Part shown: piece after piece, positions 2,246-62,660 of the stretch
Numbering within the stretch: the stretch's first letter is position 1
Layout: each line of letters begins with the position of its first letter
Source: Crocinitomicaceae bacterium
GTDB lineage: Bacteria; Bacteroidota; Bacteroidia; Flavobacteriales_D; Crocinitomicaceae
Assembly (NCBI GenBank): GCA_021325675.1
Contig: JAJTCM010000004.1
Coordinates: 66,794-130,793, forward strand
Reading direction: 5' to 3'
Length of the DNA: 64,000 nt
Notes under the pieces: generated by a model
Told to the model about the DNA's origin: nothing
Databases searched by the model: none
Seen by the model: only the letters and a program-made list of their open reading frames with translations
Translations under genes and position numbers: made by a program

Positions 2246-3346
2246 TTATTTAATTATTTTCTCAATTTCATTCACAATATCTTCTGTTGCGTGCGACCTG
2301 CCCAAAGGCTGTATGTTTTGGGACAGTTCGTGCTGCTGTTCTGCGTTATTCAATAATTCCGCTGCTACAGGAATCAATTCTTTACGGGCGTCGGCATCTT
2401 TCACGAGGATCGCAGCTTTTTTGTTCACGAGCGCCATCGCGTTTTTTGTCTGGTGGTCTTCCGCTACATTGGGCGAAGGAACAAGGATAGCCGGTTTTTT
2501 TACCAGGCAAAGCTCAGAAACCGCGATTGCCCCGGCGCGGGAAATAATCACATCTGCAACGGCGTATGCCAAATCCATGCGCTGGATAAATTCGTGTAAA
2601 TGCACATTAAGCGTTTGGTTCAGCGCGTCATTGAACTTGAGTTCGGGATAATAAAACTTGCCGCATTGCCATAAAACCTGGAAACCGGAATTACGGATAA
2701 GCTCCAATTGCCCGGTTACACTTTCATTTAAGGTGCGGGCGCCGAGGCTCCCGCCAACAATCAATGCGGTTTTTTTATTCGGGTCGAGGTTGAAAAACGA
2801 CATCGCTTCGCCGCGTTTGCCTTCCAGGTCGACCATTTCGGAACGGACCGGGTTTCCCGTGACAACGATTTTATCTTTCGGAAAGAATTTCTCCAGGCCT
2901 TCGTAAGCGGTACAAATCCGGTTTACTTTCGGCGCGAGGATTTTATTTGTTTTTCCCGGGAATGAATTCTGTTCCTGGATCAGCGTCGGGATTCGTTTCG
3001 AAATCGCTGAGCGCAGGGTCGGGCCGCTGGCATATCCGCCAACACCAATTACGACATCCGGCTTAAAATCCCGGATCACTTTACCGGCCAGGGAAAGACT
3101 TTGAATAATTTTATAAGGAAGCATGAAATTCGAAAGCGTAAACCTGCGCTGGAAACCCGCAATCGGCAGACCGATGATTTTATACCCGGCCTGTGGCACT
3201 TTTTCCATTTCCATTTTGCCTAAAGCGCCGACAAATAAAATTTCAGCATCCGGGTTGCGGCGCTTGATTTCGTTGGCGATGGCAATAGCCGGGAAAATAT
3301 GTCCGCCGGTTCCTCCACCGGATATGATGGCCCTATTCACTTTCAT
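2246..3346 (-). CDS. murG: Undecaprenyl-PP-MurNAc-pentapeptide GlcNAc transferase
   Basis: Peripheral membrane glycosyltransferase (family 28) that converts lipid I to lipid II using UDP-GlcNAc. The 366 residues carry the N-terminal glycine-rich loop SGGGTGGH (9-16), the linker GGSLGA (198-203), and the C-terminal donor-binding segment SRAGAIAVSE (269-278) followed by AEDHQTKNA (295-303). All are hallmarks of MurG. The ATG lies 14 bases inside the ftsW stop region, so the two genes overlap and are likely translationally coupled. Confidence 0.98.
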   Translation of the reverse strand: MKVNRAIISGGGTGGHIFPAIAIANEIKRRNPDAEILFVGALGKMEMEKVPQAGYKIIGLPIAGFQRRFTLSNFMLPYKIIQSLSLAGKVIRDFKPDVVIGVGGYASGPTLRSAISKRIPTLIQEQNSFPGKTNKILAPKVNRICTAYEGLEKFFPKDKIVVTGNPVRSEMVDLEGKRGEAMSFFNLDPNKKTALIVGGSLGARTLNESVTGQLELIRNSGFQVLWQCGKFYYPELKFNDALNQTLNVHLHEFIQRMDLAYAVADVIISRAGAIAVSELCLVKKPAILVPSPNVAEDHQTKNAMALVNKKAAILVKDADARKELIPVAAELLNNAEQQHELSQNIQPLGRSHATEDIVNEIEKIIK

Positions 3347-35220: not shown

Positions 35221-35620
35221 TGTGTTGAAATTTGGGTTAAAGTTACACAAGATTTCAGCGATTCATGAAATTATCAGGCTAAAATTTGGTAAAACGGCTG
35301 TTGATTTGAGTTTTTCCTTAAGCCCGGCAATTTTTACAGCATTCAACAAGCCGGTTAAACCGACCTGTTTTCAATAGCTAAGGCAGGGCGCTTAGTAGTT
35401 GTTGCAGCAGAACTCTGGAATGCCTTAATTGTGTTGGCATCTCGCTATTACGCAAATAAACAGGTGTTTATACGCTGATTCAATGGATATTGTGTCATAA
35501 GTCTATTACGTCCTCAACTAGAACTGTTTTGCTCATATTTGAGAAAAAAATCAAAAATTAATTTGGAAATAAAACTTGTTTAATAGAAATTTATAGTTCT
35601 AACTATTTAAATCATTAAGC
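35221..35620. other. 400-base intergenic region before the glycine-zipper gene
   Basis: Between divergent genes. It becomes AT-rich towards 35620, matching the next two genes. There are no open frames with coding character, no tRNA, and no convincing TAnnTTTG promoter for either gene. A few short inverted words (for example around 35331-35375, AAGCCGG and CCGGTT) are not distinctive. Confidence 0.5.
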
Positions 35621-36622
35621 ATGAAAAAGATTATTTTAGGAGCGGTTGTGATCACAACTTTGTTTTCACACGCTCAAGAAAGCCCAAGAATAGTAAAAGT
35701 ATTAGGCAGTTTCGATTTAGGAGCGAATGAAGTAACTACTTTGAAAGATATAAGCGAAGGCTGTACTTTCAAAACCTCTCCTCATGAAAAAGGTATTTTG
35801 TGCCAGGATGAAATCCTAAGCGCGGTCAAATTTGAAAATGCAGAAAAATTTGAAATTTTAAAACCGGATTTAAATTCAAAAATATACGCTTTTATTAATT
35901 GTTCTTCAAAGCTTACCATTGAAAATGTAGGAGAAATGCATAATTATTTAGTAAGGTCGGCTATAGAGGAATTAAAAAAATTTCCTGATCAAAATAAAGC
36001 CGTTGTAAAAGCTTCAAATCGGTTGTATGATGAAATATTGTATAATACAGACGTGACTCATTCTGAATTGTCGGTTTATCTCAATAAGATTGATTTGCCT
36101 CACATGTTAAAAAGTAATGAAGCCGAAAAGTTTCATCAAAAAATGAACGAAGAACTGGAAGAATCTCTAAAACTTTTAAAAAATGAATCCGACCAATTAG
36201 CTCAAATAATGACTCACATTGCTCTTGAGATAAAGGTTTCCAATCAGTCCGAGCTGGCGATTTTTGAGGGTTATATTGAAGCTCAAAGAACAAAGATTAA
36301 TTCAGGAGAAATTCCGTTGAGCGAGAATTTAAAAAATGTTGCTAATATTGTTTTTAATGTTGCCATTAGTTCGTCGAATTATTGGATTAATGAAGGGGAT
36401 GAGGATTGGAATGTTGATGTACATGCTATTCCGAAGGATGATATATACAAGATAATTCAGGCTGATTTGTGGGGTGCTCTCAGAGGAGCTGTTACTGGTG
36501 CAATTGGAGGTGCCTGGGCAGGAGGCATAGGGGCTTTACCAGGTGCATTAGTCGGAGCGTGTATAAATTCCTCTGTTAGTTCAATATACAAGGGAATAGT
36601 AATTTATATAAAATTAAACTAA
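35621..36622 (+). CDS. Exported protein with C-terminal glycine-zipper domain
   Basis: The 333 residues start with a signal peptide (KKIILGAVVITTLFSHAQ). A mostly helical, charged middle (about 100-270) has LNKIDLPHMLKS and a long Lys/Glu-rich stretch. The C-terminal 51 residues (283-333) contain G-x3-G and GG repeats: LRGAVTGAIGGAWAGG, then IGALPGALVGAC, and a hydrophobic end. This looks like the pore-forming part of class II bacteriocins or a glycine-zipper membrane insert. No family name can be given. The DNA is notably AT-rich. A small membrane protein gene follows one base after the stop. A toxin/immunity pair is an inference. Confidence 0.7.
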   Translation: MKKIILGAVVITTLFSHAQESPRIVKVLGSFDLGANEVTTLKDISEGCTFKTSPHEKGILCQDEILSAVKFENAEKFEILKPDLNSKIYAFINCSSKLTIENVGEMHNYLVRSAIEELKKFPDQNKAVVKASNRLYDEILYNTDVTHSELSVYLNKIDLPHMLKSNEAEKFHQKMNEELEESLKLLKNESDQLAQIMTHIALEIKVSNQSELAIFEGYIEAQRTKINSGEIPLSENLKNVANIVFNVAISSSNYWINEGDEDWNVDVHAIPKDDIYKIIQADLWGALRGAVTGAIGGAWAGGIGALPGALVGACINSSVSSIYKGIVIYIKLN

Positions 36623-36623
36623 A

Positions 36624-36833
36624 GTGAAAAAAATAATCTTAAACAGCTTGGGTTTTGGCGTTTTGACATTTTTGGGTATTTTGCTCGAAGAATTATTTAC
36701 GAATGATTATTGCATAAGCAAAACCGCCTTTTGGTTCCATGCCGTATTGGGGAGTGTTATAGGTATGTTGCTTTGGGGTGTTATTACTTATTGCCTCAGA
36801 AAAAATCATGCGAACAAGAACATGGAATCATAA
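36624..36833 (+). CDS. Small two-helix membrane protein, possible immunity partner
   Basis: The 69 residues start at a GTG (36624) one base after the stop of the glycine-zipper gene. Two hydrophobic helices (about 6-22, NSLGFGVLTFLGILLEEL, and about 38-60, FHAVLGSVIGMLLWGVITYC) are joined by a short loop with an acidic pair and a cysteine, and end in a basic tail (RKNHANKN). The size and topology fit bacteriocin immunity proteins, but nothing in the sequence proves it. The gene shares the AT-rich composition of its partner. Confidence 0.6.
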   Translation: MKKIILNSLGFGVLTFLGILLEELFTNDYCISKTAFWFHAVLGSVIGMLLWGVITYCLRKNHANKNMES

Positions 36834-37017
36834 AGTAAAGAATAGGCTAAAACCGCGAATTCGGATAGCTATCCGGGTTGCGTCTTCTGCAGGAACATGC
36901 CGGAAATCATCTGCGCAATCAACGAAATCTGTGGGACCACCAAAAGGTAGCAACAGAGTTAAATTTCCCTTTAAATCATCTTTTGCCCTATTTGTTTCAA
37001 ATTATGCTTCAATAAAG

Positions 37018-37048
37018 TTTGGCAATCAAAAATTTATAGCTACCTTTG
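37018..37048 (+). promoter_or_regulatory. atpDC promoter (TTTG-N19-TACCTTTG)
   Basis: TTTG at 37018-37021 and TACCTTTG at 37041-37048 are separated by 19 bases, an ideal Bacteroidota primary-sigma promoter. The leader to the atpD ATG at 37091 is about 38-40 bases. Confidence 0.8.
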
Positions 37049-61889: not shown

Positions 61890-62660
61890 TTATGGTTTAA
61901 ATCTGACTTCATTATGATATTTCAAAAACTCAGTATTTGGGAGAAATCTTGATGGCAATATGATTTCTTGATCATTATATTTTAAAAAATAATCTTGAAC
62001 TAATTGGGTTTTCTTCTTAAGAAGAATAGATGAAATTTTGATTTTATAATCAGGTGTGATTGTTAATAATCCATTTTCAAAAGCTTTATCATGCAATGCG
62101 TTTATTGCAATTCCATTTTGAGGGTTTAATCTATTTTTTTCGTCAATGCTCCACGGTTTAATATGACCAGCAACTAACACTTCAGGTTGTTGAATTCCAG
62201 TAATACAGCAAGTGTTATTGTATGAAGCTAAGATTGATTGTCTAAAGAACGCTTGATTAACTCGCACTTTAATCATTTGTTCTCGGGTTTTGCCTTCTTT
62301 AAACAATTCCATTTCTGGAATATTATTTAATCTCTCTATTGTTACATTCTTTGTTTCTGCTAACAATTTTTCACTTTCAAAAGCTAAAATTTCTAGATTA
62401 TTGTAAAACTCACTCCAAATAGATTTATCTAAATTACTAGCATTTGTAGCACCTTTTATTCCTCTGGCATGTAAACTGGGATCCATACTTGCAAAATTTA
62501 CAAGTTTGAAAGCTACCGAACCTACAGTTCTATTAATCAAACTTGCGAGTTCAATTACTTCCGGGTTTCGCTGATGAAGTTTTCCAAAAGGAAGCTTCCA
62601 GTATAAATTAATTACAAGAATTAATTCTTCTCGAGTCCACAATTTTTGACCTTCCTTCAT
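61890..62660 (-). CDS. HNH endonuclease domain protein
   Basis: A 256-residue protein. The N-terminal part (about 8-65, LWTREELILVINLYWKLPFG and ELASLINRTVGSVAFKL) looks like a DNA-binding helical domain. Residues about 150-200 form an HNH nuclease of the HNH_2 type, with NNTCCITGIQQPEVLVAGHIKPWSI and NALHDKAFENGLLTI. The conserved His residues (H172 and H190) and Cys residues are present. The gene is AT-rich compared with its neighbours and lies five bases after a 52-residue zinc-ribbon gene. Nuclease genes of this kind often belong to defence islands, but no methylase is nearby. Confidence 0.85.
   Translation of the reverse strand: MKEGQKLWTREELILVINLYWKLPFGKLHQRNPEVIELASLINRTVGSVAFKLVNFASMDPSLHARGIKGATNASNLDKSIWSEFYNNLEILAFESEKLLAETKNVTIERLNNIPEMELFKEGKTREQMIKVRVNQAFFRQSILASYNNTCCITGIQQPEVLVAGHIKPWSIDEKNRLNPQNGIAINALHDKAFENGLLTITPDYKIKISSILLKKKTQLVQDYFLKYNDQEIILPSRFLPNTEFLKYHNEVRFKP

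Follow-up and report, generated by a model that had tools for sequence, protein, structure and literature searches.

A candidate toxin-immunity gene pair with a glycine-zipper end, from a Bacteroidia-wide family of exported proteins

Two adjacent genes in the window, that is, the whole 64,000-nucleotide stretch of Crocinitomicaceae DNA analysed here, are proposed to form one cassette of a polymorphic toxin-immunity family found across the class Bacteroidia. The first gene encodes an exported carrier of 333 residues whose glycine-zipper end would depolarise the inner membrane of a competitor. The second encodes a membrane protein of 69 residues that would block the zipper. We put the probability of this reading at roughly 0.64.

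The carrier gene lies at 35621..36622 on the plus strand. Its product begins with a signal-peptide-like sequence, MKKIILGAVVITTLFSHAQ (residues 1–19, 35621..35677), that has no lipobox cysteine. There follow, all on the same strand, an extra N-terminal domain (residues ~20–95, 35678..35905), a G104-E-M-H107-N108 motif (35930..35944), an S251-S-N-Y-W255 motif (36371..36385), and a variable C-terminal glycine-zipper segment, the proposed membrane-active part (residues 281–333, 36461..36619). The last 51 residues (283–333) hold six GxxxG pairs, whereas shuffling these residues gives 2.0 on average (P 0.002). Two long helices are predicted in the C-terminal segment with low confidence, and the fold model of the carrier was of such low confidence (pLDDT 43) that it was not used. 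One base after the stop codon, an ORF with a GTG start (36624..36833, plus strand) encodes the 69-residue protein, the putative immunity protein, which is predicted to fold as a two-helix hairpin of residues 2–28 and 33–68 with a short turn between them (mean pLDDT 79.6). The preliminary description had already pictured an exported protein with a GxxxG-rich hydrophobic end, a two-helix membrane protein one base past its stop, and AT-rich composition of both genes, and all three points hold. GC content is 0.344 for the carrier gene and 0.357 for the small gene, versus 0.452 for the window and 0.483–0.489 for the flanking genes. In the only other long ORF region of the window with GC below 0.35 (0.306), at 61890-62660, the true frame is probably that on the minus strand.

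The neighbours of the pair are an aldehyde dehydrogenase-like gene and atpD, and no dedicated secretion gene adjoins it. The pair does sit just before the atpD promoter, as had been pointed out earlier. That position is uninformative, because none of the six relatives examined shares the gene order upstream of atpD, and synteny with atpD was rejected as meaningful. Two 29-bp stretches that are 72% identical, 35568-35596 upstream of the pair and 37011-37039 upstream of atpD, are probably both promoter regions.

No close homologue of the full 333-residue protein was found in 84,980 genomes or in plasmids. No entry of Pfam, NCBIfam, PHROGs, PADLOC or PDB names it, and none of its matches reaches a curated cut-off; for these libraries, the earlier remark that no existing family name applies was right. 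The best sub-threshold matches fall in the glycine-rich tail, and membership in either family was rejected: DUF6861 scored 25.6 bits versus a cut-off of 28, and Gly-zipper 15.5 versus 28.9. The preliminary description had recommended a homologue search with the C-terminal part. The tail-only query returned mostly giant repeat proteins and was uninformative, and one entry in the short list of C-terminal matches, L112, with the layout '...SVARHSYAYW...DAWW...ADVKGLVRGG...', led to a family.

The family was delimited by searching alignments of the L112-type region against 395 genomes drawn from the class Bacteroidia. Matches occur in 26 of these genomes and in 24 of the 196 genera. The shared layout is G-x-x-H-N, an interval of about 90–240 residues (mostly 100–150), S-x-x-Y/F-W, and then a variable C-terminus, usually glycine-rich and sometimes cysteine-rich. 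In an alignment of 21 members, the His and Trp (H107 and W255 of the window protein) never vary, and conservation is at least 90% at G104, N108 and G285. Many members have a lipoprotein-type signal, some a Sec-type signal, and some no recognisable signal; the lipobox of most other exported members is absent from the window protein. A profile of 24 members, from which the window protein and its nearest relatives, L026 and L139, had been left out, matches the window protein over residues 97–264 (i-E 1e-6), outside the low-complexity tail. The HMMER bias term of 9.8 bits makes this match solid, if not overwhelming alone, and to it is added the motif pair itself, GEMHN at 104 and SSNYW at 251, at family spacing. 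On sequence grounds, then, the window protein belongs to a Bacteroidia-wide exported GxxHN...SxxYW family. In Pfam, NCBIfam and PHROGs the family proteins have only weak matches, all of them under the cut-offs, and no description of the family was found in the sequence libraries or in open-licence papers. With a profile that included the signal peptide, 25 of 259 genomes of the wider order match at E 1e-3; the weakest of these matches are partial, often to the signal peptide only, and are not to be counted.

Several members vary the layout. A second member, with a lipobox, is encoded in the genome from which the window comes (L176, 2126-2989); the gene 17 bp behind it encodes an exported protein of 109 residues, not a membrane hairpin. 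In L140 (2771-3664) the glycine-zipper segment stands before, not after, the GxxHN...W domain. In L141 (2547-3497) the glycine-rich part is on a short ORF of its own (ATG near 3115), in another frame and overlapping the end of the carrier, and is followed by a membrane ORF of 69 residues, so that the cassette is split or frameshifted.

The N-terminal part of the window protein has a distribution of its own. Residues ~15–95 are shared with exported proteins of 164, 152, 354, 526 and 322 residues from the same family of genomes. The remaining parts of these proteins are mostly unrelated to it, and only the 322-residue protein, L026, is alike over the whole length. Searched against 240 genomes, a profile of this module gives about eleven clear members. 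Several of these are proteins of ~525 residues headed by the module, with a conserved partner of ~275 residues encoded behind them (L066, L069, L070, L071 and L072). Surface display is our guess at its role.

Two unrelated tandem arrays in relatives display the modularity of the family. In L116, L117 and L118, of which the latter two are contigs titled uncultured Bacteroidia, the carriers are 96–99% identical and their C-termini only 33–38% identical. Behind each carrier, within 5–21 bp, comes the gene of a distinct membrane protein (93, 109, 155 or 171 residues); in the six pairwise comparisons of these proteins z is at most 0.8, except for one pair at 3.7. L205 comes from a different lineage and has a tandem pair of carriers with 93% identity over 225 residues and 26% between their C-termini. 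The genes behind them encode two three-helix proteins that differ from each other (23% identity, z 1.0). Across both arrays the membrane proteins are 17–28% identical. Decayed carrier copies are found in both arrays, and a lone membrane gene is also present. One carrier of L205 (3641-4651) has a Cys- and His-rich C-terminus, GCCYLWHEVCWYHDAACFNC, perhaps an enzymatic toxin end; a phospholipase-like reading of it was considered, and Pfam gave no match. In these relatives, then, a constant N-terminal part is combined with a variable C-terminus and a variable adjacent gene; the window pair has no close copy with which it could be compared in this way. The classic sign of a polymorphic toxin-immunity system is an exported carrier that stays constant while its end and a matching neighbour change (PMC3482391).

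The enrichment of small membrane genes behind the carriers extends beyond the arrays. Gene calls were the longest non-overlapping frames, and a neighbour was counted if it had at most 200 residues and at least two membrane stretches, as scored by a simple hydropathy window rather than a trained predictor, and began within 150 bp downstream on the same strand. Such genes follow 13 of 40 carriers versus 5 of 203 other genes of the same loci (Fisher p 5e-8), and 8 of 35 carriers when the L116–L118 tandem clade is left out (p 8e-5). The pattern that the preliminary description had set against itself, homologues that are never followed by a membrane gene, thus did not occur. A further set contributes four hairpin-sized genes of 56–73 residues at gaps of 1–23 bp. 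Three of them reach the two-stretch threshold, namely those in L226 (56 residues, gap 13), L228 (72 residues, gap 1) and L232 (73 residues, gap 20); the fourth, in L234 (62 residues, gap 23), has two helices by eye and was scored as one. No significant similarity was found among the candidate immunity proteins, and the 69-residue protein has no homologue among the 3,594 ORFs of the loci fetched.

In about two thirds of the members, no gene for a small membrane protein lies directly behind the carrier. Some of these, L026 (the nearest relative) among them, either stand alone or precede a secreted or regulatory gene, and in L144, L145, L194, L201, L227 and L230 the next gene encodes a protein of ~350–420 residues, mostly with an exported-looking start. 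One branch (L182, L185, L189, L190 and L202) ends in an ordinary membrane hairpin, lacks an immunity-like gene, and has the appearance of a resident protein of the envelope. Harmless and structural envelope proteins can contain glycine zippers too, with which the weak, sub-cut-off Gly-zipper match of the window protein would agree. The hairpin branch and the zippers of envelope proteins speak for an envelope or surface anchor, in which the glycine-rich end would hold the exported helical domain in the membrane of the producer itself, with the 69-residue protein as its chaperone or partner. Tandem copies with carriers 93–99% identical would have no need of completely different anchors, or of a different membrane protein to go with each one, and we regard this explanation as unlikely for the window pair.

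Other neighbours bring to mind peptide maturation or signalling. In L206 (1105-7500) two family genes lie beside genes for a lanthionine cyclase (LanC-like, E 1.5e-49), a lantibiotic dehydratase N-terminus (7e-47) and an S41 peptidase, and this is possibly a modified-peptide cluster using the family carrier. In L179, L184, L188 and L225 the family member has no leader, and the gene behind it encodes a long TPR-like protein (~650–680 residues) or a response regulator, an arrangement hinting at signalling. The window protein could by extension be the long precursor of a bacteriocin or signalling peptide, its C-terminus released and in some genomes modified or sensed by a regulator. We consider this quite improbable for the pair at hand: no such genes lie near it, its C-terminus is not rich in Ser, Thr or Cys as lanthipeptide cores are, and the adjoining membrane hairpin fits immunity better than sensing. 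Least probable by far is a chance pairing of an orphan exported protein having a low-complexity tail with an unrelated small membrane protein. The lack of a detectable homologue of the 69-residue protein, and the many unrelated proteins that match the glycine-rich tail alone, are what one would expect of it; the held-out family match falls outside that tail, and the enrichment of small membrane genes is seen across the family. Given such variety among the members and their neighbours (exported proteins, TPR-like proteins, a regulator, the hairpin branch, L206), the family may serve more than one purpose, and members without an immunity-like neighbour may do something else. The toxin claim is best founded where a membrane partner is present, and by its layout the window pair is among these cassettes.

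The toxin-immunity reading can be set beside several known systems. Class II bacteriocins combine GxxxG helices with a small membrane immunity protein. The preliminary description had drawn on this likeness in proposing its toxin and immunity pair. The pairing stands as the best-supported reading, given that relatives, two tandem arrays included, combine an unchanging carrier with a C-terminus that is glycine-rich and variable and with a small membrane protein that varies beside it; the bacteriocin class does not fit, as a short peptide with a leader and a dedicated exporter would be expected, and here there are 333 residues, a Sec-type start and no adjoining exporter gene. In the Cdz system of Caulobacter, the glycine-zipper toxins CdzC and CdzD are countered by CdzI, a small inner-membrane immunity protein with three predicted helices (PMC5380434). 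The window pair likewise has a zipper and a predicted membrane hairpin, the immunity role of the latter being putative, but CdzC and CdzD have 84–86 residues, carry RTX-like signals and use a type I exporter, whereas here a Sec-type carrier of 333 residues has no adjoining exporter genes. The CDI ionophores have variable membrane-active C-terminal domains that share little but a glycine zipper, and their CdiI proteins are two-helix hairpins of 72–100 residues that vary with the toxin (PMC11630599). This arrangement, of the CdiA-CT EC93 type, is like ours in its variable, membrane-active zipper end and its hairpin partner; however, CdiA is a surface filament of a two-partner system, and the carrier here is small and unrelated, with no CdiB and no Pfam match. 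In EsxX and TelE a C-terminal glycine zipper depolarises membranes, and the membrane proteins ExiCD counter it from outside (PMC12744356), but the carriers are LXG proteins of Gram-positive type VII secretion, and Pfam finds no LXG domain in the window protein. SitA of myxobacteria is an exported, lipidated carrier with a polymorphic C-terminus and an adjacent immunity gene, sitI (PMC5562445); it differs in its nuclease domains, its use of outer-membrane exchange and its unrelated carrier sequence, and the window protein has no lipobox. On this comparison the family would work like known polymorphic and glycine-zipper toxins, yet fails the defining features of each named system.

By analogy with Cdz, the CDI ionophores and EsxX, the segment should depolarise a competitor and the hairpin should protect the producer. 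The proposed sequence of events is as follows. The carrier, with its GxxHN...SxxYW domain and, here, the extra N-terminal domain, would be exported and would display or release the C-terminal glycine-zipper segment, which would by some route, perhaps on contact as the preliminary description proposed, reach a target cell. The segment would insert into the competitor's inner membrane, oligomerise through GxxxG contacts, presumably forming a pore, and dissipate the membrane potential. In the producer's inner membrane the 69-residue helical hairpin would block the segment. While the architecture, the family membership, the joint variation in relatives and the enrichment of small membrane genes are observed, and these comparisons support the modular toxin-immunity reading, toxicity, depolarisation, delivery and neutralisation are inferred. 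More tentatively, and at somewhat less than even odds, the family as a whole may be an unnamed, Bacteroidia-wide group of Sec-exported or lipidated polymorphic toxins, with a carrier domain of its own, mostly membrane-active C-termini and no known large secretion machine, and with one lineage linked to lanthipeptide-type modification genes.

If the toxin-immunity reading is true, many environmental Bacteroidia possess a compact weapon of two genes, which has no counterpart among the named families of the libraries searched and which can be found by two short motifs and the neighbouring gene. The carrier would represent a new Gram-negative class for membrane-depolarising glycine-zipper toxins, and the arrays of L205 and L116–L118 would offer ready matched pairs for testing how membrane immunity proteins recognise their toxins.
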